From positions 1-53,514 of the forward strand of contig NZ_RCBY01000025.1 in the NCBI RefSeq assembly GCF_003838195.1: 53,514 bases of DNA, read 5' to 3'. The notes under the pieces were generated by a model, which was given only the letters and a program-made list of their open reading frames with translations, ran no database searches and was not told the DNA's origin. Source of the stretch: Okeania hirsuta (GTDB lineage: Bacteria > Cyanobacteriota > Cyanobacteriia > Cyanobacteriales > Microcoleaceae). This document shows positions 401 to 39,085 of the stretch, piece by piece (positions within the stretch are counted from its first letter, which is position 1; every line of letters starts with the position of its first letter). A program made the translations under genes and the position numbers.

Positions 401-1404
401 ATGACACGCAAAACCTACACCGAAGTAGATCTGAGTAACTCCAAGTCTAATTCCAAGTACCGGGTAAGCAACTGGTCTGAATATGATCCTTCCCTAAAGC
501 ACAGAGGGAGTCTGACATTTTGGCTCAGTCCTGAAGTAATAGAGCAGTGGGTAAACCAACAGAAAACAAGACCTAGGGGAGCATCGAATAGTTATAGTAA
601 TGTAGCTATTGAATTAATGGTCTCTGTGAGTAGCTTGTTTGGATTAGCAGGACGACAAACAGAAGGATTTGTCGAATCTATATTTAGTTTGATGGAACTA
701 GACTTACCTGTACCAGACCATAGCACTGTATCTCGTCTGATCAGGAAGTTAAACATTACTATACCAGTGATACCAAAGGCAGAAGGGACTCACGAGCGTA
801 GTAGATTCTACGAGAGTCAAAGTATATGGTGAAGGGGAATGGAAGACCAGGATTGACGGTGTAGGCAAACCTGTAAAATTGCGTAAACTACATCTAGGGG
901 TAAATGTTTGCGCAGCATTCCGAAGGAAAGCGACAGGAGAAATAATTGCTGCTGTAGTAACAACCAACGATGTTAGTGATGACCAAGTATTCTCTGACTT
1001 GCTTGATGGAGTTGAAGATGAAATAGTAAAAGTTTCGGGCGATGGAGCATACGACAAGTGCAAGTGCTATGAAAAAGCTAGTCACAAAGGAGCTAAAATC
1101 ACAATTCCGCCACGAAAAAATGCGGTGATTTGGCAGCATGGCAACTGTAGAGGTACTCCCCATCCTAGAGATAAAAACCTTAGACGCATTGGTATCTGTG
1201 GGCGAAAGAAGTGGAAAGGTGAAAGTGGCTAGCACAGGCGTTCTCGCTTCAGAAACTACAATGTTTAGACTCAAAGCTCTATTTGGAGGAAAGTTGAGAA
1301 GAGGATTATTTAACAACCAAGCGGTGGAGTTATTCATTCAATGCACTATACTTAACCCCATGATACATAATGGTAAGCTCGAAAGTTATCAAGTAGACAT
1401 CTAG
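401..1404 (+). pseudogene. Frameshifted IS5-family transposase
   Basis: Three reading frames together make one DDE transposase that aligns along its length with the copy at 38119-39085. Frame 1 (401 to about 790) holds the N-terminal region with the PVPDHSTVSRLIRKLN motif. Frame 2 (about 798-1232) resumes at VVDSTRVKVYGEGEW and carries the catalytic-core VTTNDVSDDQVFSDLLD and SGDGAYDK motifs. Frame 3 (up to 1404) carries the C-terminal TMFRLKALFGGKLRR segment. At least two frameshifts break it. An 8-residue run, VCAAFRRK, replaces a single Glu after LHLGVN and is encoded by the 21-nt repeat at 907-927. Confidence 0.9.
907..927 (+). repeat. 21-nt small dispersed repeat inserted in frame in the transposase
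   Basis: The 21 nt starting TTTGCGCAGCATTCC and ending GAAGGA are absent at this site in transposase copy 2, where VNEATGE reads through. The same 21 nt, base for base, are inserted at another position in copy 2 (38271-38291). Removing them from GTAAATG...AAGCG restores the expected V-N-E-A-T codons, so the net insertion is 7 codons. It resembles in size the very small dispersed repeats known from other filamentous cyanobacteria. Confidence 0.8.
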
Positions 1405-1425
1405 TCTCCCCCTCTTGTGGGAGTA

Positions 1426-1591
1426 ATATCATGTCCGTTTATATCGTTTGTGTAAACCCAAGGGTGAATATCTACAGGAAATGATGGTTTTTTCTTGCGA
1501 GGGTAGCCTTCTTTCCTCTTCCCTCTTTCTTCTTCCTTCTTCCTTCTTCCTTACCTTTGCTATACAAGACCGATGCTACCGGACATGATAT
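1426..1591 (+). repeat. F2 palindromic MITE nested in the IS
   Basis: It starts ATATCATGTCCG and ends CGGACATGATAT, a 12-bp perfect terminal inverted repeat over 166 bp. The interior holds GTAAACCCAAGGGTGAATAT and a CTTCCTT-rich tract. A second copy with the same interior order lies at 34441-34602 and a right half at 1-79. It interrupts the IS between the transposase stop and the right IS end, so it arrived after the IS. No open frame, therefore non-autonomous. Confidence 0.8.
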
Positions 1592-1648
1592 AATTTGTGA
1601 TTCCGGAACGGATCGCGGAGCGAATCGCAACTTTCATGCAACAAAGCC

Positions 1649-2064
1649 TAATACTAATGCTATCCAAATCTCATATTGCTTTCTCCTCCAAGAGCCATAG
1701 TTACTCTCAACTCTTTAGCAGAGTAAAAATATCTTTGATTCCTTCTGCTGTGTTTCCTCTAACTTTTTTGTATAGCAGAAGGAAGAAATAAGTAAGGAAA
1801 ATGTTGCGTTGTCTGAGTTTTAAGCTTTTGATATGTCAAATGTAGTAATGGCTACTGCTATAACTATTCATTTTTAACTCATGGTAAAATGTAGTGAAAT
1901 ATACAATTAACTATAACCCGAAAAGATATAATTGAACAAATAATTAATCACAATTTTTTAAAGGTACATCTACTACTACATCTACTACTAAAAGTGGTTA
2001 ATATTCCGGACAAAAAGCAGGGTGTAAAGAAAAATCAACAAGATGAAACACTTATGCAATTATA
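1649..2064. other. Intergenic stretch, no gene seen
   Basis: Runs from the IS end to mrdA. At 1776-1840 it carries part of an F3 repeat (TATAGCAGAAGGAAG, then TTGTCTGAGTTTTAAGC). A TACATCTACTAC direct repeat lies near 1970-1988. A 64-codon open frame at 1597-1791 overlaps the IS end and has no family resemblance, so I do not call it. Confidence 0.5.
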
Positions 2065-3984
2065 ATGACTCAAGATATTGGTTTATATTCTAAATCTCCT
2101 CACCTTGCCAGAAGTGCTGGGCAACAAATTGTATCGAAACGTAGTCGCTTGGTGCAAGCATTCACAATGATGCTACTGATCACTAGCTTAATTGGCATCA
2201 ATGCTTATCGTGTAGTACAACTACAATTAGTTCAGGGAAAGTATAACCGGGAACGTGCAGAAAACAACCGCATTCGTCTAGTTCCAGTGGCAGCGAGTCG
2301 TGGTACAATTTATGACCGCAAAGGTAAAATCTTAGCGGGTAATAAGCTGTCTCGCTCCGTATATTTGTGGCCTCAAGAATACTCAGCTGCAGAGTGGTCA
2401 GAACTTGCAACCGAATTAAGTTCAATTTTAGACATTTCCGCTAGCGATATTATCAACAAATTAGAAGAAGTTGGCTATGATTCACCCCTAGGAGTTAGAA
2501 TCTTTTCTAATCTCGATCCCACTACCTTCATAGCATTAGCAGAAAAAACTGGTGAAACACGAGGACTAGAAGTGCGTACTGAAAATATTCGCTACTATCC
2601 TAATGGCAGTTTAGCAGCTCATCTGATTGGATATACTGGCGAAGCAACCAAAGAAGAATTGATATCTAACCCCAAATACCCAATGGGAATGATTGTTGGT
2701 AAAATGGGGATAGAAAGTTCCGCAAACTCTAAATTGGAGGGAGTTTGGGGTAATCGTTTGATTGAAGTTGACGCTAAAGGTAACAAAATCCAGGAACTGG
2801 GAGCCAAAAATCCGACATCAGGCAAATCAGTCAAATTAACCTTAGATATCGATATTCAAAAAGCAGCAGAAAAAGCACTAGGAAACCGTCGGGGTGTGGC
2901 AGTTGCCATCAATCCCAAAACAGGGGAAATCTTAGCAATGGCAAGCAGACCTACATTTGACCCTAGTCTATTTACTGGTAAGATGACAACCTCAGAATGG
3001 CAACGTCTGCAAGGTGCAAGTAAGCCCTTTTTGAATCGTGCGCTCCAGGGTTATCCGCCAGGAAGTACTTTCAAAACAGTTGCTTCTGTTGCAGCACTCC
3101 AGTCTGGTAAGTATTCTCCTAACTCTAGAGTGAGAACTTATAATGCTGTCACTATTGGTGGCATCACTTTTAACGAACATAGTGGAGGTTATGGGTTAAT
3201 TGGTTTTAGGGATGCTTTAGCTTACAGTAGCAATACATTTTTCTATCAAATGGCTGTGAATATTGGCCCGGAAGTAATTTCTAAGTGGGGGCGAGAGTTA
3301 GGTATTGGTGGCAGTATTGACTTAAAACTATTGGGGATAGATGGTAATCATGGTCAAATTCCCACTCCTAAAGAAAAAGAAGAGATTTATGGAGAACCTT
3401 GGCATATTGCTGATATTGTGACTATGGGTATAGGTCAAGGTTTGGTGTTGGTAACTCCTTTAGAATCATCAGTGATGGTCAGCACGATCGCTAATGATTC
3501 TAAAGGAGTTACCAACACCAAACCTTGGCATATTGCTGATATTGTGACTATGGGTATAGGTCAAGGTTTGGTGTTGGTAACTCCTTTAGAATCATCAGTG
3601 ATGGTCAGCACGATCGCTAATGGTGGGTATCGAGTAAAGCCTCATTTATTGGCATCTCAAACTGGCACTGCAGCTACTAAATCAATTAAAACTGGTCTAA
3701 AACCTTCAACTATTAATACAGTGCGCGAAGGATTAATTGATGTGGTGAGGAAGGGTACTGGTCGGAGTTTGAATGATGGTACTATTCCATTATCTGGAGG
3801 AAAGACTGGCACGGTGGAACTTCCTGGGCAGGCAGATAATGCGATGTATATTGGGTTTGCACCTGCTTATAATCCTGAAATCGCTGTAGCAATTGCAGTT
3901 GAGGAGGGTGGTTACGGTTCGGTAGGTGCGACACCAATTGCTAAAGCTATTTTTGATACTTATTTTGCTAATAAAGGAAAATAG
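2065..3984 (+). CDS. mrdA: Penicillin-binding protein 2, class B transpeptidase, with an internal 42-residue duplication
   Basis: Cross-links peptidoglycan stems in the periplasm for cell elongation. One membrane anchor lies at about residues 29-53. The PBP dimerisation region follows, then the transpeptidase domain with PPGSTFK (S334, K337), SSN (388-390) and KTG (580-582). Those three motifs define the family and the active-site Ser is S334. The protein is 639 residues. Residues from about PWHIADIVTMGIGQG (445) to VSTIAN occur twice, joined by DSKGVTNTK, which adds exactly 42 residues between the SxN and KTG motifs; without it the length would be about 597, usual for the family. The duplicated block holds the conserved GIGQG loop, so folding could be affected, although the frame stays open. 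It stands alone, with repeats on both sides. Confidence 0.93.
   Translation: MTQDIGLYSKSPHLARSAGQQIVSKRSRLVQAFTMMLLITSLIGINAYRVVQLQLVQGKYNRERAENNRIRLVPVAASRGTIYDRKGKILAGNKLSRSVYLWPQEYSAAEWSELATELSSILDISASDIINKLEEVGYDSPLGVRIFSNLDPTTFIALAEKTGETRGLEVRTENIRYYPNGSLAAHLIGYTGEATKEELISNPKYPMGMIVGKMGIESSANSKLEGVWGNRLIEVDAKGNKIQELGAKNPTSGKSVKLTLDIDIQKAAEKALGNRRGVAVAINPKTGEILAMASRPTFDPSLFTGKMTTSEWQRLQGASKPFLNRALQGYPPGSTFKTVASVAALQSGKYSPNSRVRTYNAVTIGGITFNEHSGGYGLIGFRDALAYSSNTFFYQMAVNIGPEVISKWGRELGIGGSIDLKLLGIDGNHGQIPTPKEKEEIYGEPWHIADIVTMGIGQGLVLVTPLESSVMVSTIANDSKGVTNTKPWHIADIVTMGIGQGLVLVTPLESSVMVSTIANGGYRVKPHLLASQTGTAATKSIKTGLKPSTINTVREGLIDVVRKGTGRSLNDGTIPLSGGKTGTVELPGQADNAMYIGFAPAYNPEIAVAIAVEEGGYGSVGATPIAKAIFDTYFANKGK
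3395..3622 (+). repeat. 102-bp direct duplication around an inverted segment inside mrdA
   Basis: 3395-3496 and 3521-3622 are identical 102-bp direct copies, offset by 126 bp. The join, 3494-3527, is a perfect 34-bp reverse complement of 3436-3469 inside copy 1. Direct-inverted-direct order with 3-7 bp of shared sequence at the junctions is what a double template switch in replication leaves. The net gain is 126 bp, which keeps the frame. Confidence 0.9.
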
Positions 3985-4097
3985 TATAGCAGAAGGAAGA
4001 AGGAAGAGGGAAGAGGGAAGAAGGAAGAGGGAAAAATTTTACCTTGTCTGAGTTTTCAGCTTTTGATCTGTCCGTCCTCTTTCCTTAGACTCCTATA
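3985..4097 (+). repeat. F3 short repeat directly after the mrdA stop codon
   Basis: Starts TATAGCAGAAGGAAG immediately after the TAG stop and ends TTCCTTAGACTCCTATA. The interior is TTTTACCTTGTCTGAGTTTT followed by CAGCTTTTGATCTGTCC. The same order occurs at 7258-7352 (reverse), 42491-42602 and partly at 1776-1840. The ends are imperfect inverted repeats (TATAGCAG / CTGCTATA in the better copies). Confidence 0.65.
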
Positions 4098-4102
4098 GTA
4101 TT

Positions 4103-4325
4103 ATGTCCGGCTAAATAGACATAGGCGTGATAATCAAAAATCAAAAAATTATCAATTATTTCTCCCTGTTCCCTGTTCCCTTATAACTAAATTATTGTTT
4201 TAACCAAAAGACGTAGTGCTTTTTTTATGAAAAAAAATTCTTCATTCTTCCTTCTCTGCTGACTTCTGACTCCTGACTCCTGAATCCTCCGTCGCTTTTT
4301 ATAAGTATTCAACCGGACATGATAT
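4103..4325 (+). repeat. F1-like palindromic element, degenerate
   Basis: The left end ATGTCCGG (4103-4110) and right end CCGGACATGATAT (4313-4325) match the termini of the F1 copies at 20854-20981 and 42724-42854. The CTGACTCCTGAATCCTCCGTCG tract before the right end is shared too. It is longer than the others (about 220 bp), so it may be a composite. It lies just upstream of the hydroxylase/dehydrogenase gene. Confidence 0.55.
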
Positions 4326-4409
4326 AACTTTAAGACTTCCTATCAGAAAAGCAATACTTCTAATGTTAATTTAAAGTATATTTATATAACATATTTGATA
4401 GTGAGGTTT

Positions 4410-5639
4410 ATGGAGTTTTATCTGGTCAACCCTTGGATAGCCAACATTTGTTGGATCCTGGGTTCTATATTATTTGTGGAACTGGTGCGAGATACTTATC
4501 ATGTGGTTTCTCATATTTGGTCTCCTTTGTATAAATGGCACGGTTGGCATCATCGTGTTTTCCGCCCAGACTTGACTCCTGTCAGTACAGAGGTTTATCA
4601 AAAAGCTACTTGGTATCACGATGTCCCAGAATCTCTGGTAATGTTGACTTTTAGTCTGTTACTCTGGGCACTAACTTTTGTTTGGATACCTTCTTATCAT
4701 TGGGCTACTTTAGCAGGTTCTGTTTATACTTTAAGTTTCTTGCTTCCGGCGATCGCTCGTGGTATTGGTATTCCTCATGCTGACCAACTTACAGACCTCA
4801 ATCATCTTCCTGGTGCATTCTCAGAGCCTCCCACTTATTGGTTTGTTAACCGTTCTTATCATTGGCGACACCACTTCGATAATCAAAATGCTTATTTTTG
4901 CGGTACTCTGAGTCTGGTAGATAAACTTATGGGTACAGCTCTTTCTCTCAAAGGTAAAACTATTGCTGTTACAGGTGCTTCTGGCAGTTTAGGGCGATCG
5001 CTTCTCCTACATCTTCACAAAGCAGGGGCAAAAGTAATTGCTCTTACCTCTGGGAATCAAACTATTACTATAAATATAGATGGTAAAGACTTAAAAGTAA
5101 GTACCATAAATTGGCAAGTAAGTCAAGAAAATAATTTAGCAGATTTATTTAAAAAAGTAGATATTTTAGTATTAAATCATGGCATTAACGTACATGGAGA
5201 AAAGACAGCAGAAGCGATCGCTAAATCTTATGAAATTAATACTTTTTCTAGTTGGCGAATGTTAGAAATCTTCCTCAAAACTGTGAGAACAAATTCTGAT
5301 ATTGCCTGTAAAGAAGTCTGGGTTAACACATCAGAAGCAGAAGTTTCTCCAGCTTTTAGTCCTCTATATGAACTCACAAAAAGAACCCTTGGAGATTTAG
5401 TTACTTTAAGAAAATTAGATGCTCCCTGTGTCATTCGGAAATTAATATTAGGTCCGTTTAAAAGTAATCTTAATCCCATTGGAATAATGTCTGCTGATTG
5501 GGTGGCAAAACAGATAGTAAAATTAGCAAAAGCAGATGTTAGAACAATTATTGTCACAATTAATCCTTTGACTTTTGTAGCAATTCCTATCAAAGAATTT
5601 TTAGTTTCTACTTACTTTAAATTATTTACTTCTAAATAG
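4410..5639 (+). CDS. Bifunctional fatty acid hydroxylase-like / short-chain dehydrogenase fusion protein
   Basis: The N-terminal half (about 1-185) is a membrane fatty-acid-hydroxylase (sterol desaturase) type domain. It has several hydrophobic segments and the iron-binding His clusters WHGWHH, a distal YHWRHH and intervening His residues. The C-terminal half (about 187-400) is a short-chain dehydrogenase domain with the nucleotide-binding GASGSLGRSLL and the LNHGIN motif. This domain pair is a known protein family, usually about 400 residues, matching the 409 here. The substrate is unknown; a lipid is likely. I start at ATG 4410, preceded by GTGAGG; the TTG five codons upstream lacks a clear ribosome site. 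No operon partner. Confidence 0.8.
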   Translation: MEFYLVNPWIANICWILGSILFVELVRDTYHVVSHIWSPLYKWHGWHHRVFRPDLTPVSTEVYQKATWYHDVPESLVMLTFSLLLWALTFVWIPSYHWATLAGSVYTLSFLLPAIARGIGIPHADQLTDLNHLPGAFSEPPTYWFVNRSYHWRHHFDNQNAYFCGTLSLVDKLMGTALSLKGKTIAVTGASGSLGRSLLLHLHKAGAKVIALTSGNQTITINIDGKDLKVSTINWQVSQENNLADLFKKVDILVLNHGINVHGEKTAEAIAKSYEINTFSSWRMLEIFLKTVRTNSDIACKEVWVNTSEAEVSPAFSPLYELTKRTLGDLVTLRKLDAPCVIRKLILGPFKSNLNPIGIMSADWVAKQIVKLAKADVRTIIVTINPLTFVAIPIKEFLVSTYFKLFTSK

Positions 5640-5721
5640 GGTTTGCTGAATAAAGTATTTTGGTAGGGGGTGGGTTGTCTCCTGACTCCTCCTCTGACCA
5701 AAAGACTTCCATAAGCGAACC

Positions 5722-6120
5722 CTACTCAAACTTGCCGCTTTTTCTGTATAAAAAACTCCTTACTGCAAGAGATAAACCATAAATCCTAAGACGAGCAGCA
5801 TTCACAGAATTAGGATCGTGAGCATCAAACGCCTCCACTGCACCCAAAGAATCCGGTTGCCTACCGATATCAAAAGATAGTTTCTCCGTTTCTTCAAAAG
5901 AAAGCGACCGACCTATGGTTATCGTTGCTAAATCCAACCAAGGGGAAGTTTCTTCACTCCATTCTACTTCTTGGGTAAAAATCTTAGTTTTATCCCCTTG
6001 AATATCTTCATGCAAGCGTAATTGGAGATGATAGATAATAGGTTTTTGGGAAAGTTTCTCAACATATTCCTTGCGGAGATAATCAATAGGTCTGGTCTCA
6101 TCAGGAAGGCGATTTTGCAA
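5722..6120 (-). pseudogene. C-terminal fragment of a catalase-like haem protein
   Basis: The 132-codon frame resembles the C-terminal part of the small catalase-related (SrpA-like) family: EVEWSEETSPWLDLATITIGR, then DAHDPNSVNAARLRIYGLS. The full family is roughly 300 residues or more and the N-terminal haem-pocket region is missing. Upstream in frame are two TAA stops, and the only start is a TTG with no ribosome site. I read it as a truncated remnant. The family assignment rests on motif memory only, so it is moderate. Confidence 0.45.
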
Positions 6121-6312
6121 CCAAATTTATTAAGACCCGCTTTTTTTACTGAGAGCTGACAGCTAATAGCTGAATGCTTACGCTAACCTAGTGCAGGATG
6201 GCAGAAATAACTAACCAGTTACAAAATCCTAAAACAATTACAGATCAAAAATGATTGACTTTTAAATGCATGACTTTTAACTTCCGGGTAGCGACACTAA
6301 TCTCTGTTTTTC

Positions 6313-6903
6313 TTAACCATCATTAATCCCATCATCCATCTGAGATAACATTGTCTGTATTTCAATATTCGACTCCTCAACTTCCATTTCTATCGAATCA
6401 AAAGTTGGCTGTACAACGAAAGGTAAAGATGCTCCTATCAATCCTCTTTTAATCCTTTCTGGAGTCTCTGAAAATAAAACAAATAAAGGATAAATTTCCT
6501 CAGCTTCTTGAGAATAAATGTGTTTATAACCTTGAGGCATTACCCATTCATATTCCTTATCTAATAAAATCTGAGTTTGTCGCCAACGACTAAGTAGATC
6601 GGAAAAGTCTTCCTGGGGTCTATAAATAAAAATAAAAATTTCTGCTCCTGTCTTAACCTTCCACTCAGGGTCGCACATAAAAATTCCTAGATCGCAAGGC
6701 AAATTAACAGTTTTTCCTGACTCATTACCATGTTTTCGTAAACTAATAATAGGTAGAGGAATCACAATTAAACTATCTTCTGGACGACGCATACTGGGAA
6801 GCATTTCTAAGTATGGTCTATGTTGTTTAAGTAGTGCAATTGTTGCTTGTGAATTACTATATTCTGCTAGTAGTGCTTCGTAATCTGATTTTTTTATAAC
6901 CAT
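6313..6903 (-). CDS. Hypothetical protein, 196 residues
   Basis: I do not recognise the family. It starts MVIKKSDYEALLAEY and has no signal peptide or membrane segment. It looks like a soluble mixed alpha/beta protein with an acidic C-terminal tail (about 170-196, rich in Glu, Asp and Met). A central stretch of beta character (DSLIVIPLPIISL, then IFIFIYRPQEDF) and a Trp-rich helix (LSRWRQTQILL) are the most distinctive parts. It is flanked by repeat-bearing intergenic DNA, so it is probably a single-gene transcript. Length and codon use look like a real gene. Confidence 0.6.
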   Translation of the reverse strand: MVIKKSDYEALLAEYSNSQATIALLKQHRPYLEMLPSMRRPEDSLIVIPLPIISLRKHGNESGKTVNLPCDLGIFMCDPEWKVKTGAEIFIFIYRPQEDFSDLLSRWRQTQILLDKEYEWVMPQGYKHIYSQEAEEIYPLFVLFSETPERIKRGLIGASLPFVVQPTFDSIEMEVEESNIEIQTMLSQMDDGINDG

Positions 6904-7155
6904 AATAATTTTAATTTTTTCTTATATTTAACTTATAATTTTCTACTATTTCAAATAGGGAATAGGGAGTAGGGAGTAGGGAACAATAGGAAAAAAATTT
7001 TCCTGTCTAAGGTTTATCATCAGCATAAGTCCTAACCAACTCGTTCTTTGCTATATAAAATTTGGATAGGAACAGGGAATACAACTTGTTAGGGACTAGC
7101 AAAAAAATAGACTACCAGCTAATCTATAGAGTAGAGATTGCTTCGGCTAGCTTAA

Positions 7156-7257
7156 CTATTCCCGATTGAGGTTGAGTTTAATATCATCGCCTCGCAATGA
7201 CAGCCACGAGCCTTTTTCTACACCAATAATTGGTACTTTATTAAGTTGCAAATCCCT
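7156..7257 (-). pseudogene. Possible C-terminal gene remnant, 33 codons
   Basis: On the minus strand a frame reads DLQLNKVPIIGVEKGSWL and then LRGDDIKLNLNRE before a TAG at 7158-7156. The pattern VPIIGVEKGSWL could be the end of a peptidase E-like or related enzyme, but that is a guess. The frame has no start; its upstream side is occupied exactly by the F3 repeat that begins at 7258. That suggests a gene truncated near or by the repeat. Confidence 0.25.
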
Positions 7258-7352
7258 TATAGCAGTCAAAGGAAAGGTTAGGACAGTTCAAAAGTTTAAA
7301 ACTCAGACAACGTAATACTTTTCCTTCTTCCTTCTTCCTTCTTCCTTCTTCA
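7258..7352 (-). repeat. F3 short repeat, reverse orientation
   Basis: Reads TTATAGCAGTCAAAGGAAAGG at the left and AAACTCAGACAACGTAATAC with a CTTCCTT tract at the right. It is the reverse complement of the F3 arrangement at 3985-4097 and 42491-42602. It ends just beyond the 3' end of pilC, so it may form the end of the pilC message. Confidence 0.6.
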
Positions 7353-7359
7353 ATTCACT

Positions 7360-8493
7360 CTACAAATCTTCAAATACCTTAAACATAGGTAAATACATAG
7401 AAAGCAAAATCGCACCAACCATCGCACCAATAACAACAATCATTAAAGGTTCCAACATACTTGTCAAAGATTTTACGGCTTCCTCAACTTCTTGTTCATA
7501 AAAAGCTCCCACCTTCATCAACATCGCATCCAACTCACCAGTTTCCTCTCCAATAGCCATCATTTGAACTGCTAAAGAAGGAAAAACTTTCTTTTCTTGC
7601 AGAGCTAAACTAATCATTCCCCCACTTTGAATTTCTTGCCTTGCATACTCAACAGACTCAGCGATCGCCGCATTTCCTGCCACATTTCTCACAATTTCTA
7701 GAGACTTCAACATTGGTACACCGGAGCGAGTCAAAGTACCAAAAATCATACAAAAACGAGCCACTGCCGACTTTTCAATAATATCTCCAAAAATAGGAAG
7801 TTTCAGAAATATTTTGTCAAAAAATAGCCTACCTTGGTCTGTTTTATAAACCATTGTATAAACAACGTAAATAAAAATAATTGTGCCTATTGCCGTTACT
7901 TGAGGAATAGGAGGCCAAGTTCTACAAAAAGCACTAATACCTAACATAAAAACAGTAAAAGCAGGCAACTCAGTACCAATTTCTTCAAAAATTTTGGCAA
8001 AGGTTGGTAATAGAAAAGTCGTCATACCAAAAAATACTGCCAAAGCAATAAACATAACAGTTTTTGGATAAGACATAGCAGACTTAATTTCACTCAAAGT
8101 CTTAGCATTTTTCTCCAACATTACTGCCAAACGCTCAAGCACTTCATCAAGGACACCACCCACCTCTCCAGCAGCCACCATACTCAGAAATAATTCATCA
8201 AAACAAGCAGGATGTTTCCTCATTGCTTCTGACAATTCAGTGCCTTCTTCTACCTCTGCACTAATCATTTTTAGAGCATATTTAATCTTATAATTAGAGC
8301 TTTGTTCTTGTAATACTTTAAGACACCTGACCATCGGCACACCTGCATTAAACATCGCAGCAAATTGACGTGCAAAAACAGCTAAGTCCTTAACAGTAAT
8401 CGTAGCAAGGGCGACGTTTAATTTTTCTTCAAATGCTTTTAATTGTTCCTCTAATCCACCTTTAGATTTTTTCCTGGCTAAATTGCTAGTCAT
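7360..8493 (-). CDS. pilC: Type IV pilus inner-membrane platform protein PilC
   Basis: Inner-membrane core of the type IV pilus motor; PilB and PilT act on it to add or remove pilin. Two T2SF (GspF) domains are visible. The first is at about 38-165 with FARQFAAMFNAGVPMVRCL and GEVGGVLDEVLERLA. The second is at about 240-365 with FCMIFGTLTRSGVPMLKSLEI and IGEETGELDAML. Hydrophobic segments lie near 145-170, 195-215 and 345-368. Length 377 is slightly short of the usual 400 at the N-terminus, which here is Lys-rich. It is third in the minus-strand order pilB-pilT-pilC, 419 bp after pilT. Confidence 0.95.
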   Translation of the reverse strand: MTSNLARKKSKGGLEEQLKAFEEKLNVALATITVKDLAVFARQFAAMFNAGVPMVRCLKVLQEQSSNYKIKYALKMISAEVEEGTELSEAMRKHPACFDELFLSMVAAGEVGGVLDEVLERLAVMLEKNAKTLSEIKSAMSYPKTVMFIALAVFFGMTTFLLPTFAKIFEEIGTELPAFTVFMLGISAFCRTWPPIPQVTAIGTIIFIYVVYTMVYKTDQGRLFFDKIFLKLPIFGDIIEKSAVARFCMIFGTLTRSGVPMLKSLEIVRNVAGNAAIAESVEYARQEIQSGGMISLALQEKKVFPSLAVQMMAIGEETGELDAMLMKVGAFYEQEVEEAVKSLTSMLEPLMIVVIGAMVGAILLSMYLPMFKVFEDL

Positions 8494-10016: not shown

Positions 10017-10076
10017 AATTTCAATCTCCCGAAAAACGTTGCATTTGCTATACTTAAAAAGTTAATTACTCCTCAA

Positions 10077-31257: not shown

Positions 31258-31557
31258 TGAAAAATATAATTGAAAAAATAGAAGTTGCGTAGTATAACAA
31301 AAATAGAGAGGAGAAGTATAGCTTAACATGGGTTAAACAGTCTTCTATCAGCTACATGGCTCTGACCAGCGAAATAGATTTTGAAACTCCCGGTTGACTA
31401 TAATGAACACTCTTTGTAATTTGTATAGTTTAGTTATCGATTCAAATTTTTCCTGATAGTTTGTTTAGAATTTTTGCTCATAAAGTTGCAAACATTGGCA
31501 GATGTGAGAATCAGTAACTTCAAAAGCAACTACTAATACAAAAATTATTAACATAGT

Positions 31558-31842
31558 ATGAAAGAAACATTGGCAAACTTATTAAACTTTTCTGGTCTGG
31601 CTTGGTGGGTTAAAATTTTTACTACTAACCCTTGTTGCACTTATTATTTTGGACCTTTTTTTACATTTGAAGAAGCAAAAGCTGCTGAAGCTGGCTATAT
31701 AGAAGATTTAAAAGACGAAAGTGCTCAGGGTATTCAGGTGTTTATTGAGCAGTCTAAACCTGTGGAGTTAACTATTTATGATGAATTAGAAAATAGTAGT
31801 AATGAAACAGTAATAAATCCTGCTTTTAGTCCCCAAACTTAA
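31558..31842 (+). CDS. DUF1816 domain protein
   Basis: 94 residues. The core LAWWVKIFTTNPCCTYYFGPFFTFEEAKAA (about 14-45), then YIEDLKDESAQGIQVFIEQ, matches DUF1816, a small family largely confined to cyanobacteria and of unknown function. Vicinal Cys (CC at about 27-28) and the aromatic run are its main features. Related short domains sometimes occur beside phycobilisome-linker-like genes, but none is here. The 300 bp upstream hold no other gene. Confidence 0.8.
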   Translation: MKETLANLLNFSGLAWWVKIFTTNPCCTYYFGPFFTFEEAKAAEAGYIEDLKDESAQGIQVFIEQSKPVELTIYDELENSSNETVINPAFSPQT

Positions 31843-32113
31843 TCCTTTTCAGGAAATTATAAAATTTGAAGATAAATGGTGTTGCTGAGTAATAGTATAA
31901 CTTTGAAGTTAGTAGTCGATAAGAGTCAAAGATACTAAATAAACTACTAATTGCTTGATACTAGATAGAAAAATAGTAAAGCTTATTAATTACTCTTGAT
32001 TTACTTTAATTTAAGTCTTGATATCTGTTTTCAGCAATGCCAATAAATTATAATTAGGAAATTATCAACTTTTCTTAATTTTGACTTTTAATTGACTTTT
32101 ACAAGAATTTCTA

Positions 32114-32289
32114 ATACCAATTTCATAAAATATTGCTACAGTCTCGACACTGGTAACAGGCAACAGGGAAAAAACTGGATAAAAAAGAGGAAAAGATACT
32201 TGATTTTGACATTTGATGGATATATACAATTTTTAATTGTAGCAATAAATTACAAGTTAAGATGTAACTACCTTTTTTGAATTTGGTAT
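32114..32289. repeat. Degenerate F5 inverted-repeat element
   Basis: Left end TACCAATTTCA and right end TGAATTTGGTA resemble the F5 ends at 46191-46391 (TACCAATTTG / CAAATTGGTA). Interior ATTGCTACA / TGTAGCAAT motifs are also inverted. A 62-codon frame over it (32092-32280) is not a gene. Confidence 0.45.
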
Positions 32290-32300
32290 AATATTTTTGA

Positions 32301-33119
32301 TTATTTTTGCTGAAGCTGTATCCATTTTTTAATATCTGTTAGCACTTGCTGAGAAATTTCCCAAGGAAAAAGATGAGCGGTGTTAGGATAGCATTGCCAA
32401 TGTGCATGATTGAGATGTAGAGCTGTTTCTTGACTGGACTCAGGAGTAATATGGCAATCGCTTGCCCCAGCTAATACTAAGCAAGGACATTGAATTTGTG
32501 GCAGAGCGCTCAATCTGTTATAGTCACTTCTTAAAGCTTGATTTAATGCTCTAGTGGCAAATTTAGAAGTTTGTAAATAGGCAGAAACGGCTTCTTTTGC
32601 TAAATATTTATAGCTGGCAGGAGTGTGTTGTTGAATGAGATATCTAAATAGTGATCGCTTGCCAAAAGTATCAATATTCCATTGCCATCCAGGCATCAAC
32701 CAATTTATGATCCCCGCTAAACCAGTATAAAGATTATCCTGCCAAGTAATAGGTGGATGATTACCTCTAGGTCGTGCTGCGGTACCTATTAAAATCAGAC
32801 CTGCAACTTTCTCTGGGTTTTTTAGAGCTAACTCCATTGCTATAATTCCACCTAACGACCATCCTAATATAAAATATTTGGGGATTTGAAGTTGGTCTAG
32901 CAGTATTTCTAAATCTACTAAATGTTGAGTAATCTCAAAGTCTTTTTTCGTATAACTTTTGCCATAACCTCTTAAGTCAGGAGCAATAGTTTGAAAGTTT
33001 TGGCAGAGGGAGTTGGTAAAGACAGACATACATTGGCCTGAACCTGGATGTCCGTGGAGGCAAAGAATGGGAAAACCTTCTCCTTTGAGTTGAAAATGTA
33101 GTGGTAATGATGAGACCAT
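32301..33119 (-). CDS. Alpha/beta hydrolase
   Basis: 272 residues of a soluble alpha/beta-hydrolase fold. The oxyanion start LCLHGHPGSGQ (about 19-29), nucleophile elbow GWSLGG (Ser near 107), acid Asp in LAGASDCHITP and the catalytic His in NTAHLFPWE make the triad. It is of the MhpC/esterase type; the substrate cannot be told from sequence. A cap region (about 135-190, rich in Trp and aromatic residues) is present. It stands alone on the minus strand with repeats on both sides. Confidence 0.88.
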   Translation of the reverse strand: MVSSLPLHFQLKGEGFPILCLHGHPGSGQCMSVFTNSLCQNFQTIAPDLRGYGKSYTKKDFEITQHLVDLEILLDQLQIPKYFILGWSLGGIIAMELALKNPEKVAGLILIGTAARPRGNHPPITWQDNLYTGLAGIINWLMPGWQWNIDTFGKRSLFRYLIQQHTPASYKYLAKEAVSAYLQTSKFATRALNQALRSDYNRLSALPQIQCPCLVLAGASDCHITPESSQETALHLNHAHWQCYPNTAHLFPWEISQQVLTDIKKWIQLQQK

Positions 33120-33301
33120 GATTTTTTTTTCTGTAAAATTTTCTTTATATACCTTACCTTGCTTTCAAGTCTAGTTAATATAATTACAGCAGATTGCAGG
33201 TAGATGAGGTACAAATATAAATGGTAAAGTCTTTGTAGTGCGGGCATCTTGCCCGCGACTGGTGTACCTCACTAATATGAAATATGCTGTAAATTACATC
33301 C

Positions 33302-33394
33302 TCAGGACTTACGCAGAGACTCTACATATAGCGAGGGTGAATATCATTCGCCCCTACAAATGGTGGTTTAAAAGTCAATTTGCGTAAGTCCTGA
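33302..33394. repeat. 93-bp MITE with 14-bp perfect ends
   Basis: TCAGGACTTACGCA (33302-33315) and TGCGTAAGTCCTGA (33381-33394). The interior includes GGGTGAATATCATTCGCCCCTAC. A degenerate relative sits at 17355-17446. The GGCATCTTGCCCGCG stretch just upstream (33243-33257) recurs in the tandem at 45955-46144. Confidence 0.8.
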
Positions 33395-33580
33395 TCCTAA
33401 TAACGATAATTCAGATAAAAAATTTACTAAACCCTTTTTATTTTTATCTTTTGGGTTTAATACCCCGCCGCCACTCGCGGTGTTTACAATTAGTTTGGGT
33501 TGGAGTCCCCATCAACTTTTTCCATCTTCCATCTTCCATCTTCCATCTTCCTTGTTCAATCCTAAGTATTAATTTCTGTT

Positions 33581-34153
33581 ATGGAGTCAAACCAAAATCA
33601 AATTACAGAAAAGCAAAAGATGCTAAACGGGCAATATTATAATGGCTTTGATAAAGACTTACTAAAAGATAGACAAAGAGCTAAAAGTTTATGTCAAAAA
33701 TTGAATAATATTCCAGATGGCAGTCAAGAAGAAAGGGTCAAAATTATCAGAGATTTATTCCAAACCGATCGAGATTGTTGGATAGAATCTCCTTTTAAAT
33801 GTGACTACGGGTATAATATCCAAATTGGAGATAATTTTTATGCCAACTTTGGTTGTGTTATTCTTGACTGCAATATTGTGAAAATTGGTAGTAATGTAAA
33901 GTTAAGTCCTAATGTACAAATTTATACTGCTACTCATCCAATAAATGTGACAGAAAGAATTGCAGGTAAAGAAATGGCTTATCCTATTGAAATAGGGGAT
34001 AATGTTTGGATAGGAGGGGGTTGTATCATTCTTCCTGGTTTAAAGGTTGGAAAAAATACAGTTATTGGGGCGGGAAGCGTGGTAACGAAAGATATTCCTG
34101 AAAATGTTGTTGCAGTGGGGAACCCCTGTCGCGTAATTAAAGAAATTGAATGA
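33581..34153 (+). CDS. Sugar O-acetyltransferase (maltose/galactoside acetyltransferase type)
   Basis: 190 residues, cytoplasmic, trimeric left-handed beta helix in relatives, transferring acetyl from acetyl-CoA to a sugar. The N-terminal mac domain is KMLNGQYYNGFDKDLLKDRQRAKSL (about 14-38). Hexapeptide repeats start at YGYNIQIGDNFYANFGCVIL. The catalytic His is in YTATHPIN, followed by the EIGDNVWIGGGCIILPGLKVGKNTVIGAGSVVTKDIP signature and VAVGNPCRVIKEIE end. The sugar substrate is not determinable. A CATCTTC tandem tract precedes it. Confidence 0.9.
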   Translation: MESNQNQITEKQKMLNGQYYNGFDKDLLKDRQRAKSLCQKLNNIPDGSQEERVKIIRDLFQTDRDCWIESPFKCDYGYNIQIGDNFYANFGCVILDCNIVKIGSNVKLSPNVQIYTATHPINVTERIAGKEMAYPIEIGDNVWIGGGCIILPGLKVGKNTVIGAGSVVTKDIPENVVAVGNPCRVIKEIE

Positions 34154-34213
34154 ATAACAAAGAGTTTTGAAGTATACACAGTATTTATCGTGATTAACTC
34201 TATTTTGAAAACT

Positions 34214-34338
34214 GGCGTTGCATAAATACGGGATGATTTTAATAGTTTTGTGGAATGGGCATCTTGCCCGTTCCTGATATTTTCACCGCAGGCATGATAC
34301 CCACCCCACTTATATTCATCCCGCCCCTCAGCAATGCC
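34214..34338. repeat. 125-bp MITE with GGCGTTGC / GCAATGCC ends
   Basis: The left end GGCGTTGCATAAATACGGGA and right end, finishing CAGCAATGCC with TTCATCCCG inside it, are imperfect inverted repeats. TGGGCATCTTGCCCG is a palindrome within it. The GGCGTTG tip resembles, but is not the same as, the 20614 and 21141 elements. Confidence 0.6.
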
Positions 34339-34440
34339 TGAAAACTTAATGAATTACTCCACCCATCATAATATAGAATCCATTTGGTATCTTTGCACGC
34401 AGTATGTGCTTTTAGCTGCTGAAGTCAGGAAGACCGAGTC

Positions 34441-34602
34441 ATATCATGTCCGCTGGTATCATTTATGTAAACCCAAGCGTGAATATTTACAGAAAATTTC
34501 AGTTTTTTCAGACTTTTAAGTCTTCTGTTCTAGATAAATAAAGCCTTTTTCCATCTTCCTTCTTCCTTACCTTTACAATACGGATGCTACCGGAGTTGAT
34601 CT
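34441..34602 (+). repeat. F2 palindromic element, copy with a decayed right end
   Basis: Starts ATATCATGTCCG, then ATTTATGTAAACCCAAGCGT and a CTTCCTTACCTTTAC tract, the same order as 1426-1591. The right end is altered to CTACCGGAGTTGATCTCAT. Non-coding. Confidence 0.65.
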
Positions 34603-34784
34603 CATAACTCCGGAGATTCAGAAATACAATAGGGGAAAAAGGTAGAAAAATGAATGGGTAATCTTGGTCGCGTAATGGTTAAAAGAACAATAGATGTCTG
34701 GCATGGGAGCAAGATGCTCCCACTGTTCTTGTAACAAAAATAATGACAATGTACAACCAATGAAAATGCACCACCACCGAAAAA

Positions 34785-35087
34785 TTATCCCTTTTTCTCT
34801 AAGAGTTCTACTGCTTCCCTGGGAGTAGAATTTTCTGTAGTAGACACCAACAACTGTAGCAAAGCATTAATCGCCTTCTTATTGCCAGGGTCAATTTTCC
34901 CTAAGAGTTTTGCTGCTTCCCTACGAGCATGATGATTAGAAGTAGACTCCAACAATTACAGGAAAGCATTAATTACTTTCTCATTGCCCATGCTAATTTT
35001 CCCTAAACTTTCTGCTGCTTCCCTACGAATATTAGGATCGGAAGTAGACCCGAGCAATTGCACCAAAGCATTAGTTGCTTTACTCAA
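34785..35087 (-). pseudogene. HEAT-repeat gene fragment with an internal stop
   Basis: On the minus strand about 100 codons read three HEAT/EAT units of about 31 residues: ATNALVQLLGSTSDPNIRRE, VINAFL-stop-LLESTSNHHARRE and AINALLQLLVSTTENSTPRE, each with an AA(E/K)xLGKI-type helix. A TAA at 34956-34958 interrupts the second unit. The sequence is very close to the HEAT start of the NACHT protein at the window's right end (LVNLLESTVDDDTRGQAAES). There is no start or NACHT domain, so it is a stranded 3' fragment of a paralogue. Confidence 0.85.
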
Positions 35088-35537
35088 GTATTTAAAAGAA
35101 TAGCTGCTGAACAAATACAAAATTTACAAACTAAATTTGTACAACAAATCAGTCAAATCATAGCTTCCCCTAAAAATAATGTGCCAAAAACCCTCAATAA
35201 TTTAATTAAAAATGTACAGAAATTATCATTTGTCAATAGGATGACTTTATATCTGTCAGATAAAACAGATGATACAATTATTTGGAGGTATTCATCACAG
35301 ACAATTTATCATGAAAAAGACAAAAGAAAATTAGAATGTTTATTTGTGGCCAAAGAATACGAAAAAGCGATTCCATCAGCTTTTCAAGGAAAGCCAGAAC
35401 TGTTAAAAGTAATCAATGACCGCACAGAATTCCAATGGTACTATATTGTTAAAAATGAAAATAACCAACCTATAGCTGTTTTAAGAGTAAATGGCAATCC
35501 TTATGAAAACTTCAGAGAATATAAGTTAGGTATTTGA
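35085..35537 (+). pseudogene. Fragment of a GAF-like sensory protein
   Basis: The open frame formally starts at ATG 35058, but the first nine codons lie on the antisense of the HEAT fragment. The native-looking part begins FKRIAAEQIQNLQTKFVQQI, a helix, then LIKNVQKLSFVNRMTLYLSD and WYYIVKNENNQPIAVLRVNG, which resembles a GAF-type sensory domain. It lacks any output domain. A join between two unrelated broken genes lies at about 35085, so I read this as a remnant. The GAF reading is tentative. Confidence 0.45.
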
Positions 35538-35616
35538 AAGATATAGTAGTTTATTCTTAAGTATCACCTCTATGAGAACTCTGATAGTCTAAAAGCATTT
35601 TTACTTTTACCTGTTA

Positions 35617-35847
35617 TACCAAGCGTGATAAATATTTGCTACAAATAAATAGGTTATTTCTTAGGAGTAAACCCACCCCTAACCCCTCCCAGGAGGGGAA
35701 GTCACCGAGTCAGGAGTTAGGAGTTAGAATAAATAGCTTTGATACCATTTATTAGGTCGGAATTTATCTTTTTAGTCCAATGGATATCTCCTATAAAGTC
35801 TTTTAATTGCCCAAATTAATTCGTAATATTCTTTTTCCAAATTGGTA
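35617..35847 (-). repeat. F5 inverted-repeat element, reverse copy
   Basis: Read on the minus strand it starts TACCAATTTGG, then AAAGAATATTACGAATTAAT and AGGAGATATCCATTGGACTA, matching 46191-46391 in order. It carries an extra CCCCTCCCAGGAGGGG unit in the middle (about 35675-35700), a repeat within a repeat. It ends AGCAAATATTTATCACGCTT and GGTA. Confidence 0.7.
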
Positions 35848-36062
35848 TTATCTTCTCTCAAAATTAAAGATATATATAAATACAGCAGATTCCATGTAAA
35901 TGTGGCAAAGTAGTTTAGAGTCCAAATAATGAAAGTAATTTTTAACAAAATACTCAGGATTGGAAAAACTATATTCTTTCTTTCCTACTACCTACTACCG
36001 ACTCCCTGCTCCCTACCGTACTTCATAAACCACCAAATACTCTGTAAATGTAGAGGTGTAAT

Positions 36063-37337
36063 ATGCAACGACCAATAGGTATAGATTTATTTGCAGGTGC
36101 AGGAGGTATGACTCTGGGCTTTGAACAAGCAGGATTTGATATACTTGTTTCTGTAGAATTAGACCCCATTCACTGTGCCACTCATCAATTCAATTTTCCT
36201 TTTTGGCCAATATTATGTCGTAGCATAGTTGATATTACTGGAGATGACATTAGACAGTTATCAGATATTAAAAATAAAGAAATTGATGTAATTTTTGGTG
36301 GTCCTCCTTGCCAAGGTTTTTCTCTGATGGGAAAACGTACCTTAGATGACCCACGCAATACACTTATATCTCATTTTGTTCGATTAGTTTTAGAGTTAAA
36401 ACCTAAATATTTTGTCATAGAAAATGTCAAAGGATTAACAGTAGGAAAGCAAAATTTTTTTCTTGAGGAAGTCATTGACAAATTATCTAAAAATGGTTAT
36501 CAAGTTCAGCAACCTTACCAAATTTTAAATGCTGTCAATTATGGTATACCGCAAAATAGGGAAAGATTATTTTTAATGGGATGTAAAAAAGGTTTAATCT
36601 TACCAAATTATCCTCTAGCAATTACAAATATTTCTACCGATAAAAAATCAGAAAACTTGATCACTGTTAAGGATGCAATCGGAGATTTGCCAGAAGTAGA
36701 AAATTATCCAGAACTATTAGAAAGAGATTGGATAAAAGTAGAAAATGATTATGGTAAACCAAGCAAGTATGCTATAAAATTGCGTAATATTGAACGTTTT
36801 AATAATGACTATTCTTATAAACGTGAATACGATCAAACAATATTAACCTCTAGTTTACGCACAAGACATACAGAAAAATCAAGAGAAAGATTTAATGCTA
36901 CAGCACCAGGAAAAATTGAATCAGTAAGCCACTTTTATAGACTTAATCCTGATGGTATTTGTAACACACTCAGAGCTGGAACACCAAGTAGTAAAGGGGC
37001 ATATACTTCTCCAAGACCAATACACCCATTTACACCCAGATGTATCACAGTTAGGGAAGCAGCAAGATTACATTCATATCCTGATTGGTTTAGATTTCAT
37101 GTAACAAAATGGCATGGTTTTAGACAAGTTGGAAATTCAGTGCCACCCCTATTAGCAAAGGCAGTAGCTCAAGAAATTATTCATGTTTTAAATATTAAAC
37201 CACTTCAACCTAGAGGAAAAAAAATCAAGTTAGAAAAATGGGAAAATTTAGAGTTTAATATGTCTATGGCCGCTAAAAAATATCAGGTAGATCGACATAC
37301 TATTGCGCCAAGAAGTAGAAAAAAAATAATTAGTTGA
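36063..37337 (+). CDS. DNA (cytosine-5-)-methyltransferase, apparently orphan
   Basis: 424 residues. C5-methyltransferase motifs in canonical order: I DLFAGAGGMTLGF (8-20), IV with catalytic Cys83 GGPPCQGFS, VI ENVKGL (120-125), VIII NYGIPQNRERLF (159-170), IX around RPIHPFTPRCITVREAARL and X RQVGNSVPPLLAKAV. The target-recognition region is about 215-310. The C-terminal tail (SMAAKKYQVDRHTI, about 400-415) looks like a small helix-turn-helix and is not part of the core. No restriction endonuclease or Vsr gene lies on either side, so it is a solitary methylase; cyanobacteria often carry several that match HIP1-type sites, but the target here is unknown. Confidence 0.92.
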   Translation: MQRPIGIDLFAGAGGMTLGFEQAGFDILVSVELDPIHCATHQFNFPFWPILCRSIVDITGDDIRQLSDIKNKEIDVIFGGPPCQGFSLMGKRTLDDPRNTLISHFVRLVLELKPKYFVIENVKGLTVGKQNFFLEEVIDKLSKNGYQVQQPYQILNAVNYGIPQNRERLFLMGCKKGLILPNYPLAITNISTDKKSENLITVKDAIGDLPEVENYPELLERDWIKVENDYGKPSKYAIKLRNIERFNNDYSYKREYDQTILTSSLRTRHTEKSRERFNATAPGKIESVSHFYRLNPDGICNTLRAGTPSSKGAYTSPRPIHPFTPRCITVREAARLHSYPDWFRFHVTKWHGFRQVGNSVPPLLAKAVAQEIIHVLNIKPLQPRGKKIKLEKWENLEFNMSMAAKKYQVDRHTIAPRSRKKIIS

Positions 37338-37384
37338 TATTATATTAATTAAATTAACAAATAAACTCAGAATTTATTTATTTT

Positions 37385-37590
37385 CATATTCCGGCAGTCT
37401 TGTAACCGTAATAGTATTGATTAAACTTGGGACAAATTATCTAATGATTTTAGCTGCGATCGACTCAGCTCCAATTAAAAAAAACGGTGGATCTTCGGAG
37501 CTTCCCGTAGGGTGGGATGGCGAGGAGACCTGCGCCATATCCAATCTACACAAGAGAGAGGATATATTTCGGTTTCTTTCCTACTCACAG
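37385..37590 (+). repeat. F4 dispersed repeat, copy 2
   Basis: Shares with 29431-29653 the left part (ATAGTATTGATTAAACTTGG) and the right part (ACAAGAGAGAGGATATATTT). The middle carries GGATCTTCGGAGCTTCCCGT instead. An 87-codon frame across it (37417-37680) is a by-product and not called. Confidence 0.55.
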
Positions 37591-37723
37591 TTTTTTCCAC
37601 TCCAGGTATCCCTTACTCCCCTACTCTCTGCTCCCTTTTCACTCAAATTTATTGTCCTAACCAAAGAAGGTAATTTTTAAGTATTTTTTGCACAGTTGTG
37701 TAATTAACTTCTATCACTACAAA

Positions 37724-38050
37724 TTAATTAATATGTGTTTGTGTAAAATCCTCATTTGTCAATTCGTTATTATCAAAAACATTAAATATATCTATTTCTT
37801 TACTAGATAACTTATTCATTTGTTTTGCAAACTTAGAAGCTAATTGTTTAGTATGAATTTGCAACTTTGGCCCTGAAATGCCCAGCCGAATAATCATATT
37901 GTCTACCACTGATGTCTGAATGATTGGCTCATCATTTACATAAGTACCATTAGCACCAAAATTGACCATCATCCAACCAGATGAATTTTTCCATAATTCT
38001 GCATGATGGCGAGAAACTACTGCACTATAAATTATTACATCATTCTGAAT
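37724..38050 (-). pseudogene. FHA-domain gene lacking its 5' end
   Basis: The minus frame reads IQNDVIIYSAVVSRHHAELW, then NFGANGTYVNDEPI, the second half of an FHA phosphothreonine-binding domain (SRHHAE and GxNGTYVN signatures), and an 80-residue helical tail. The FHA beginning with its GR motif is missing; a TAA occurs just upstream and the IS903-type copy lies 16 bp away. I think the gene was already damaged or was cut by the IS. The tail starts MMVNFGANG if an internal Met is used, which would not make a complete domain. Confidence 0.7.
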
Positions 38051-38118
38051 TATTTAATTATTTAATGGCTTTGTTGCATGAAAGTGGCGATCGCGACAAC
38101 TCCCCTGAGTGGAGTAAA

Positions 38119-39085
38119 CTAGATTTCAACTTTGTAGCTTTTGGGTTTACCTATTTGAATCATACGGTTAAGCATGGCACATTGTATGAATAACTCCACT
38201 GCCTGAGCATCAAATTTTCGTCGCCGCAACTTCCCTCCAAATATCACTTTGAGCCTAAACATCGTGGTTTTCCTTCGGAATGCTGCGCAAACTGATAGGG
38301 AGCATCGATGGTAGCCACTTTCACGTTTCCATTTCTTGCGTCCTACAATTCTTATTCTTCTGAGGTTTTCATCTCTGGGATGAGGTGCGCATTTACAGTT
38401 GCCATGTTGACCTATTACCGCATTTTTCCTTGGTGGAATCGTTGTCTTTGCTCCTCGTTGCCTAGCTTTCTCGTAACACTTATACTTATCATAGGCTCCG
38501 TCTCCTGATACTTGGGCTATTTCCACATTTACTCTATCTAATAGGTCAGAAAATACTTGATCATCACTTACATCATTGGTAGTCACTACCCCGCTGACAA
38601 TTTCCCCTGTGGCCTCATTTACTCCTAGATGTAATTTACGCCATGTCCTGCGTTTACCTACACCATGAATCCTGGTTTTCCATTCCCCTTCACCATAGAC
38701 TTTAACTCCCGTAGAATCCACTACTAGATGAATAGCTTCATGAGTTGGTATAACTGGCAGTTGAACATTCAGTTTTTGTAAGCGACGGGATATAGTGCTA
38801 TGGTCTGGTACTGGTAAATCTAAGTTCATCAATTGAAATATAGATTCTACAACACCTTCAGTCTGTCGTCCGGCCAAACTAAACAATGATTGTATAGTCA
38901 CCATAAATTCAATGGCTGTGTCACTATAGGTATTTGATGCTCCCCTACGTCCATTTTTTTGTTGGTTTACCCACTGCTCTATTACTTCATCATCAGCGCC
39001 AAAATGTGAGACTTCCTCTCTGTTTTAGGGAAGCATCATATTCAGACCAGTTGCTGAGTCGGTACTTGGACTTGGACTTACTCAT
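38119..39085 (-). pseudogene. IS5-family transposase with one N-terminal frameshift
   Basis: Reading starts MSKSKSKYRLSNWSEYDASL at ATG 39085. It runs into TGA TGA at about 39000 (TTTTGGCGCTGATGATGAAG) where the intact order would be SLTFW...DDEVIEQWV. From there the second frame is open to 38119, giving LVVDSTGVKVYGEGEW, VTTNDVSDDQVFSDLLD and SGDGAYDKYKCYEKA (catalytic Asp regions of the IS5 DDE fold). One frameshift near 38995-39003 may leave it inactive or allow expression by slippage. SVCAAFRRK before TMFRLKVIFG comes from the 21-nt insertion. Confidence 0.88.
38271..38291 (-). repeat. 21-nt small dispersed repeat in transposase copy 2
   Basis: Reverse complement of the 21 nt at 907-927, identical at every base. 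It interrupts TCAG...AAACCACG, where copy 1 reads TCAGAAACTACA without it. The insertion point is about 85 codons downstream of the insertion point in copy 1. Confidence 0.8.

Follow-up and report, generated by a model that had tools for sequence, protein, structure and literature searches.

A very small, very probably mobile 21-nucleotide repeat in Okeania hirsuta and its recurrent sites in IS5-family transposase genes

Introduction

The closest described systems are the small dispersed repeats (SDRs) of Nostoc punctiforme and its relatives, reportedly described by Elhai and colleagues in 2008 as dispersed units of 21 to 27 nucleotides (nt) with recent mobility. They are said to comprise eight families confined to one cyanobacterial group, the heterocystous one, and to show nested self-insertion (SDR1 and SDR4), tandem heptamer contexts, and covarying structure (SDR4 to SDR6). 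As far as we know, no mechanism has been established for the movement of elements of about 20 nt since their first description. Here, we analyzed a 21-nt repeat, TTTGCGCAGCATTCCGAAGGA, found in a 53,514-nt stretch of Okeania hirsuta (assembly GCF_003838195.1, contig NZ_RCBY01000025.1, positions 1 to 53,514; hereafter, the window), where it occupies different sites in two transposase genes of the insertion sequence (IS) family IS5. It very probably belongs to a non-coding family of very small mobile repeats of the SDR type; the original prediction, made from the letters of the window, had already likened it to the very small mobile repeats of Nostoc-type genomes, and with hundreds of dispersed copies this is the reading that fits best.

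In the features compared, which are those reported for SDRs, the repeat fits the SDR kind. It agrees in length (21 nt, within the range given above) and in its many dispersed copies, it nests within its own copies and adjoins heptamer arrays, and it can form a hairpin with compensatory changes (in the second stem only). It differs in being abundant in Okeania and its kin, outside the heterocystous group reported for SDRs. According to PMC4390886, SDR5 enters HIP1, the highly iterated palindrome, between nt 3 and 4 (GCG^ATCGC, the caret marking the insertion point). One copy of the Okeania repeat, in a PP2C-type phosphatase gene of Okeania SIO2F4, has the flanks GGCG^ATCGCG, which read as HIP1 when joined, and the empty orthologues on stretches L242 and L244 lack the complete octamer. 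Unlike SDR5, however, the repeat is not restricted to HIP1, since the flanks of 141 sites are mostly of other kinds.

Three further classes were considered. Repetitive extragenic palindromic (REP) sequences and their hairpin-forming doublets (REPINs), with the REP-associated tyrosine transposases (RAYTs, TnpAREP), are likewise small, partly palindromic, and present in hundreds of copies, but membership was rejected, as we found no GTAG or CGTC foot in the flanks and no enrichment near Y1 transposase genes (1 of 19 loci; counts in 20 genomes). The IS200/IS605 elements share the lack of a target duplication and the hairpins, whereas the Okeania repeat has no linked transposase and does not resemble the termini of the single multi-copy IS200/605 element examined in the window genome. 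Miniature inverted-repeat transposable elements are also non-autonomous and dispersed; here, membership was rejected because the repeat has neither terminal inverted repeats nor a target duplication and is far shorter. In the literature searched, which excludes most subscription papers, neither the presence of this repeat in Okeania nor its insertion rule was reported; as far as searched, this rule and the recurrent hits on one nucleotide are new.

Dispersal of the repeat

The two copies in the window, at 907 to 927 on the plus strand and 38271 to 38291 on the minus strand, are identical, and both have a G before and AA after, as had been noticed at the outset. The 15-base core gave five matches in the window at up to three mismatches (1.07 expected), four of them exact. 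Across the whole window genome (716 contigs, 8.79 Mb), the 21-mer was found at 297 places with at most three mismatches (147 forward and 150 reverse), versus none for the reversed pattern, so its recurrence is not a matter of chance. Confinement of the 21-mer to the two transposase sites, which the original prediction had named as the outcome that would speak for ordinary protein variation, was therefore not what we found. A looser pattern, TTTGCGNAGCNNNNCGNAGNNA, matched 206 places in the same genome and 451, 387, 400, and 403 in four others of the genus. At least one repeat match was present in 69 of 388 genomes drawn evenly from the order, with counts of 1 to 4 outside the window's family, and the exact 21-mer was found in 34 named stretches from Okeania, Hydrocoleum, Trichodesmium, Symploca, and a Microcoleaceae genome, in a search that may leave out near relatives of the window.

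Copies of a generic pattern, GCGNAGCNTNNCGNAGNNA, numbered 15 to 391 in 18 of the 20 genomes chosen and 2 and 4 in the remaining two (controls, 0 to 3). In an even draw from the phylum, it matched 58 of 244 genomes, many of them with 1 to 3 matches, which is no more than controls reach; the high numbers belong to family f33 (up to 243, some members having 0) and to the window genome. Within a single genus (g7), the TTTGCG form of the repeat reached 99, 121, and 177 copies in genomes G016, G021, and G370 and 3, 2, 3, and 1 in G010, G333, G352, and G363. Such copy-rich and copy-poor genomes offer a natural contrast for finding a required gene.

Transposases do not define where the repeat lives, although this had been put forward as a feature worth pursuing: 17 of 116 sampled copies lie in open reading frames (ORFs) of at least 120 amino acids (aa), 6 in sense orientation, sharing a single phase, and 11 antisense, with all three phases represented. 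The supposed in-frame choice follows from the length of 21 nt, a multiple of three, and ORF copies are found on either strand and in several phases. TnpB is among the genes hit (PF07282 and PF01385 in L107; other ORFs resemble TnpB by eye), and so is the phosphatase gene mentioned above, which also encodes a zinc ribbon (P0001, L109:1758-3983) and carries its copy in frame. Eight orthologues of it from other genomes (L242 to L249) were compared, five of which align across the insertion point; L242 lacks exactly 21 nt, and L243, L244, L248, and L249 are also without the insert, with further gaps present.

Filled and empty sites

To define the inserted unit, copies were compared with homologous stretches without the repeat, keeping the anchors 5 bases off the junction and dropping rows whose net length did not exceed 8, which were treated as filled. 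An empty partner was obtained for 44 of 109 copies. With the best partner, 30 of these 44 sites gave a net length of 21, as did 74 of all 121 pairs, not every site being independent. A second scan, ungapped and hence fixed at 21 nt, provided partners for 98 of 153 copies, 81 after redundancy removal. The tabulation of flanks proposed by the original prediction, carried out on 141 unique filled sites (two stem types), gave C or T at −2 in 99%, G at −1 in 96%, A at +1 in 98%, and A at +2 in 91%, with G^AA in 123 of the 141 and a consensus of YG^AA. The context CTG^AAnGC accounts for 44 of these sites, many beside arrays of the TAGCTGA-type heptamer. Neither target duplication nor terminal inverted repeats were seen in the IS5 transposase alignment, and copies nested one inside another were found in L152/L040, L070, L112, and L118.

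We had considered that the element imposes its preceding G, given 24 mismatches among 79 filled/empty comparisons at −1 (p = 2.5e-6 versus 11%; partners were chosen by a score that omitted the six junction bases), and withdrew this idea because mismatches at unscored control positions ranged from 8 to 48%. Palindromic target context showed no overall shift between 77 non-redundant, non-heptamer sites and 4000 control YGAA sites (Mann-Whitney p = 0.79); target stems of at least 8 were present at 4 of the 77 sites and 19 of the 4000 controls (Fisher p = 0.0008, the threshold having been chosen afterwards). Some copies sit amid REP-like palindromes, e.g., GTAGGGGCGATTCGCG^AATCGCCCCTAC, in L228, L240, L236, and L159 (12838).

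Repeatedly filled sites in IS5 transposases

The IS5 alignment comprised 29 copies from ten genomes and one Trichodesmium metagenome-assembled genome (MAG) record, after exclusion of contained copies, of row L083 (153 nt), and of copies covering fewer than 600 bases of the query. Site 1, the one filled at 907 to 927 in window copy 1 (target ATG^AAG), is occupied in 3 of the 29 rows, namely window copy 1, the Trichodesmium MAG, and Microcoleaceae MO_207.B10. Site 2, filled at 38271 to 38291 in window copy 2 (target CAG^AAA), is occupied in 7 of 28, one row falling short of it. All appear as exact 21-column gaps. Window copy 1 has site 1 filled and site 2 empty and copy 2 the opposite, so that coordinates and alignment bear out the starting observation of identical 21-mers at different points of two transposases, each without the insert of the other. 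The copy nearest to window copy 1, L182, is empty at site 1 (AATG^AAGCG), and other copies (e.g., L062, L067, and L164) are empty at the site 2 point of window copy 2. In MO_207.B10, both sites are filled in a single element, and one site-2 occupant from the window's own genome carries a second repeat at a G^AA of its own. A third transposase site carries the repeat in the fragments L180 and L185, both with G at −1; of the 26 copies empty there, 21 have A at this position and five, which L185 resembles, have G.

In a tree computed from 28 rows after removal of the inserts and of row L174, which falls short of site 2, site 2 requires seven changes for seven filled rows, six of them forced by well-supported branches, and site 1 requires three, two of them so forced. 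The site-2 occupants differ at the two N positions of the repeat, and the filled L163 has an empty partner, L164, identical at 34 of 34 scored flank bases. The simplest reading of site 2 is independent insertion at the same nucleotide, in line with the initial suggestion of independent insertions or transposition of the repeat, which the tree supports, although the IS copies may also have reached this state by exact loss or by gene conversion among them. The scatter of filled rows over the tree and the near-identical flanks of filled and empty sites suggest that mobility may have been recent, as reported for SDRs. Each IS5 copy offers some 63 G^A(A/G) sites when both strands are counted, so the YG^AA rule by itself does not seem to account for the use of site 2, which resembles a hot spot. 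Chance was put at 5e-12 for 7 of 10 events falling on one of about 63 sites; this figure ignores relatedness and conversion and is an indication at most. Five copies (L161, L162, L165, L176, and L177) are empty at site 2 with CAA or TAA in place of the catalytic GAA codon at the insertion point, possibly as footprints of loss or through ordinary decay.

The intact relative in L167 reads Y-HR-R-SLS-(V C E A F R R K)-TTMFRL-K in this region, and GAA or GAG lies across the site-2 junction in 22 of 28 rows. We take the signature Y-(2)-R-(3)-E-(6)-K to hold for IS5 as well as for the IS4 family. For the latter, the E of this signature is the E of the DDE motif, according to PMC2266710. Judged by the signature, site 2 is the codon of the catalytic DDE glutamate, split by the insert. 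The insertion turns one Glu codon into eight (V-C-A-A-F-R-R-K), the net gain of seven codons that had been read from the window. Since the glutamate codon is split, the product, and with it the IS5 copies filled at site 2, is probably inactive; tolerance by the protein therefore does not explain the recurrence there.

Fold and covariation of the unit

As DNA and as RNA alike, the 24-nt element with flanks is predicted to fold into two abutting hairpins, TGC-GNA-GCA and TTCC-GNA-GGAA, of which the latter takes its final A from the flank; two abutting hairpins are likewise predicted for the complementary strand. Stable mini-hairpin loops follow a GNA rule. Mini-hairpins such as d(GCGAAGC) are described in PMC10527192 as extraordinarily stable, nuclease-resistant DNA hairpins. 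At 134 places among the matches listed for GCGNAGCNTNNCGNAGNNA in the phylum draw, with the window genome left out, both free pairs of the second stem are Watson-Crick in 113 (shuffle mean 22.9, maximum 39), and the same rows contain nine complementary stem types, with every base represented at each of the two loop N positions. For the fetched DNA, 25 distinct stems average 2.24 of three pairs, compared with 1.29 after shuffling (maximum of 2000 shuffles, 1.76). The first mini-hairpin (TGC-GNA-GCA) is suggested by its invariance around a free N. Among copies of the window's own genome, loop positions 6 and 16 (counted from 0) vary and the others hardly do, even at inactive-looking sites, which is a lead only, as the search patterns fix most other positions.

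How the repeat may move

Overall, these results are probably best explained by a repeat of the SDR type that adds a net 21 nt, mostly at YG^AA, has a covarying stem, recurs at IS5 sites, and may be copied as a folded strand. Several observations weigh against this explanation. No excision product, intermediate, or enzyme was seen. Net lengths other than 21 were found for 14 of the 44 best partners; such other lengths come largely from heptamer arrays and from copies aligned out of register. The mismatch at −1 is no excess over the control positions, and there was no strand asymmetry on the G109 chromosome (p = 0.14; 65 main-contig places of 66 in the genome). On the transposase tree, shuffled labels need 6.4 changes on average for site 2 and 2.9 for site 1; the filled rows are as scattered as shuffled labels, with no clustering, which alone does not tell gain from loss, and the recurrence at site 2 could be due to gene conversion or exact loss. 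As for the fold, predictions differ with heptamer flanks, with a TCCC stem, and in the Nostoc-type variant (most keep the second stem in part), and folding was not clearly better than in shuffles, either as DNA (z of −0.31, −0.66, −1.88, −0.50, and 0.14) or as RNA (0.64, −0.40, −0.60, 0.26, and −0.33). Because the energies do not clearly beat shuffles, the structural evidence is the covariation, and this covers the second stem only, the first being fixed by the search patterns. When each distinct arm pair is counted once, it falls to 1.08 of two pairs versus 0.56 (standard deviation, 0.12), the largest of 5000 shuffles reaching 1.12.

One way of copying would be through an RNA intermediate, the transcribed repeat folding and being copied into YG^AA sites by a resident reverse transcriptase. 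RNA intermediates were reportedly suggested as possible for SDRs, the compensatory stem changes fit an RNA fold as well as a DNA fold, and RVT_1 matches were present in all 20 genomes tested, with 11 in the window genome. Their counts, however, do not track copy numbers (57 in G013, which has no TTTGCG-form copies, versus 11 in G000, which has 206), and the copies in ORFs are found in both orientations (6 sense, 11 antisense). Neither observation decides against this route, which we regard as possible though on the unlikely side.

The mechanism that we propose, tentatively and as somewhat unlikely when taken in all its parts, is the copying of a folded single strand with microhomology. The first half of the unit would form the mini-hairpin TGC-GNA-GCA beside TTCC-GNA-GGA(A) in the second half, and a single strand with these two GNA hairpins would be copied into a new place during replication or repair. 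The junction G and AA might reflect target preference or microhomology, and the copying enzyme could be host machinery or an enzyme acting in trans. The short G/AA target, the lack of duplication, and the two compact hairpins fit such copying; we had rated it somewhat higher until the mismatch excess at −1 failed a fair control.

Mobilization in trans by a single-strand transposase of the Y1 (HUH) class, such as those of IS200/IS605 elements or the RAYTs, with the hairpins as recognition structures, seems unlikely. This class is marked by insertion without target duplication and by small hairpins, both of which match the repeat, and the window genome has 19 Y1_Tnp matches. Nevertheless, a copy lies within about 1.5 kb of 1 of the 19 Y1 loci, with about 1.4 expected from density (206 copies in 8.79 Mb), and across 20 genomes the Y1 counts do not track copies (26 in G007 with none, 6 in G011 with 95). 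The flank profile has no GTAG foot, and the ends of a five-copy IS200/605 element (L123 to L127), the sole Y1 element whose ends were compared, are unlike the repeat. Terminal structures of the IS200/IS605 type are covered in PMC6006769.

Gene conversion among IS copies, i.e., one old insertion per site that was spread or lost by recombination between transposase genes, would account for the same nucleotide being filled in several of the many IS copies per genome and for the fact that site 2, one of about 63 available sites, holds most insertions. The differences between site-2 occupants at the two N positions and the identical flanks of L163 and L164 speak against it, and it cannot explain the copies dispersed in contexts other than IS genes; we consider it quite improbable. 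We are equally doubtful that no dedicated transposase is needed, a stable, nuclease-resistant two-hairpin oligonucleotide being templated into replication or repair gaps at YG^AA through 1 to 3 bases of microhomology. This idea lost a little ground, from an already low estimate, because the −1 mismatch excess failed its control; were it true, the mobile element would be reduced to a fold. Finally, ordinary indel variation tolerated by the transposase, for which the position of site 1 in a short stretch between two hydrophobic segments that look strand-like in the sequence could be cited, is contradicted by the 297 dispersed copies, by 99 of 116 sampled copies lying outside ORFs of at least 120 aa, and by the split YREK/DDE glutamate codon with its probably inactive product, and is extremely improbable.

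Other features of the window

The IS5-family element with the site-1 copy extends from 355 to 1424 on the plus strand and, with no ORF of at least 150 aa, is by that measure a decayed transposase. The element with the site-2 copy (38065 to 39165, minus strand) contains an ORF of 261 aa (38119 to 38904) that matches PF01609, PF13737, and NF033579 (IS5 family transposase) and has a shorter N-terminus than its 341-aa relative in L167.

The two imperfect copies (19 of 21) that had been pointed out in a 92-bp tandem were located at 45967 to 45987 and 46059 to 46079, both on the minus strand, in the first and second units, respectively. The tandem duplication occupies 45940 to 46145, and the repeat copy of each unit has CCACAGG for CCGNAGG (CCGAAGG in the 21-mer), the G of the GNA loop being lost. 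Next to IS copy 1, at approximately 1426 to 1594, lies a different dispersed repeat, about 170 bp long, with similar text seen by eye near 1 to 100; it matches at least 28 places of the genome at 80 to 100% (40 of 619 candidates scored).

Implications

The repeated occupation of the catalytic-glutamate codon of a transposase suggests that such repeats can switch off transposons. The repeat now comes with filled and empty sites that match closely, with a rule for its insertion (YG^AA, net 21 nt, and no duplication), and with one for its structure (two GNA loops and a covarying stem), and the mechanism is therefore directly testable. Several hundred copies in marine filamentous cyanobacteria appear to have inserted themselves precisely at many places, and they may help to test how small dispersed repeats move.

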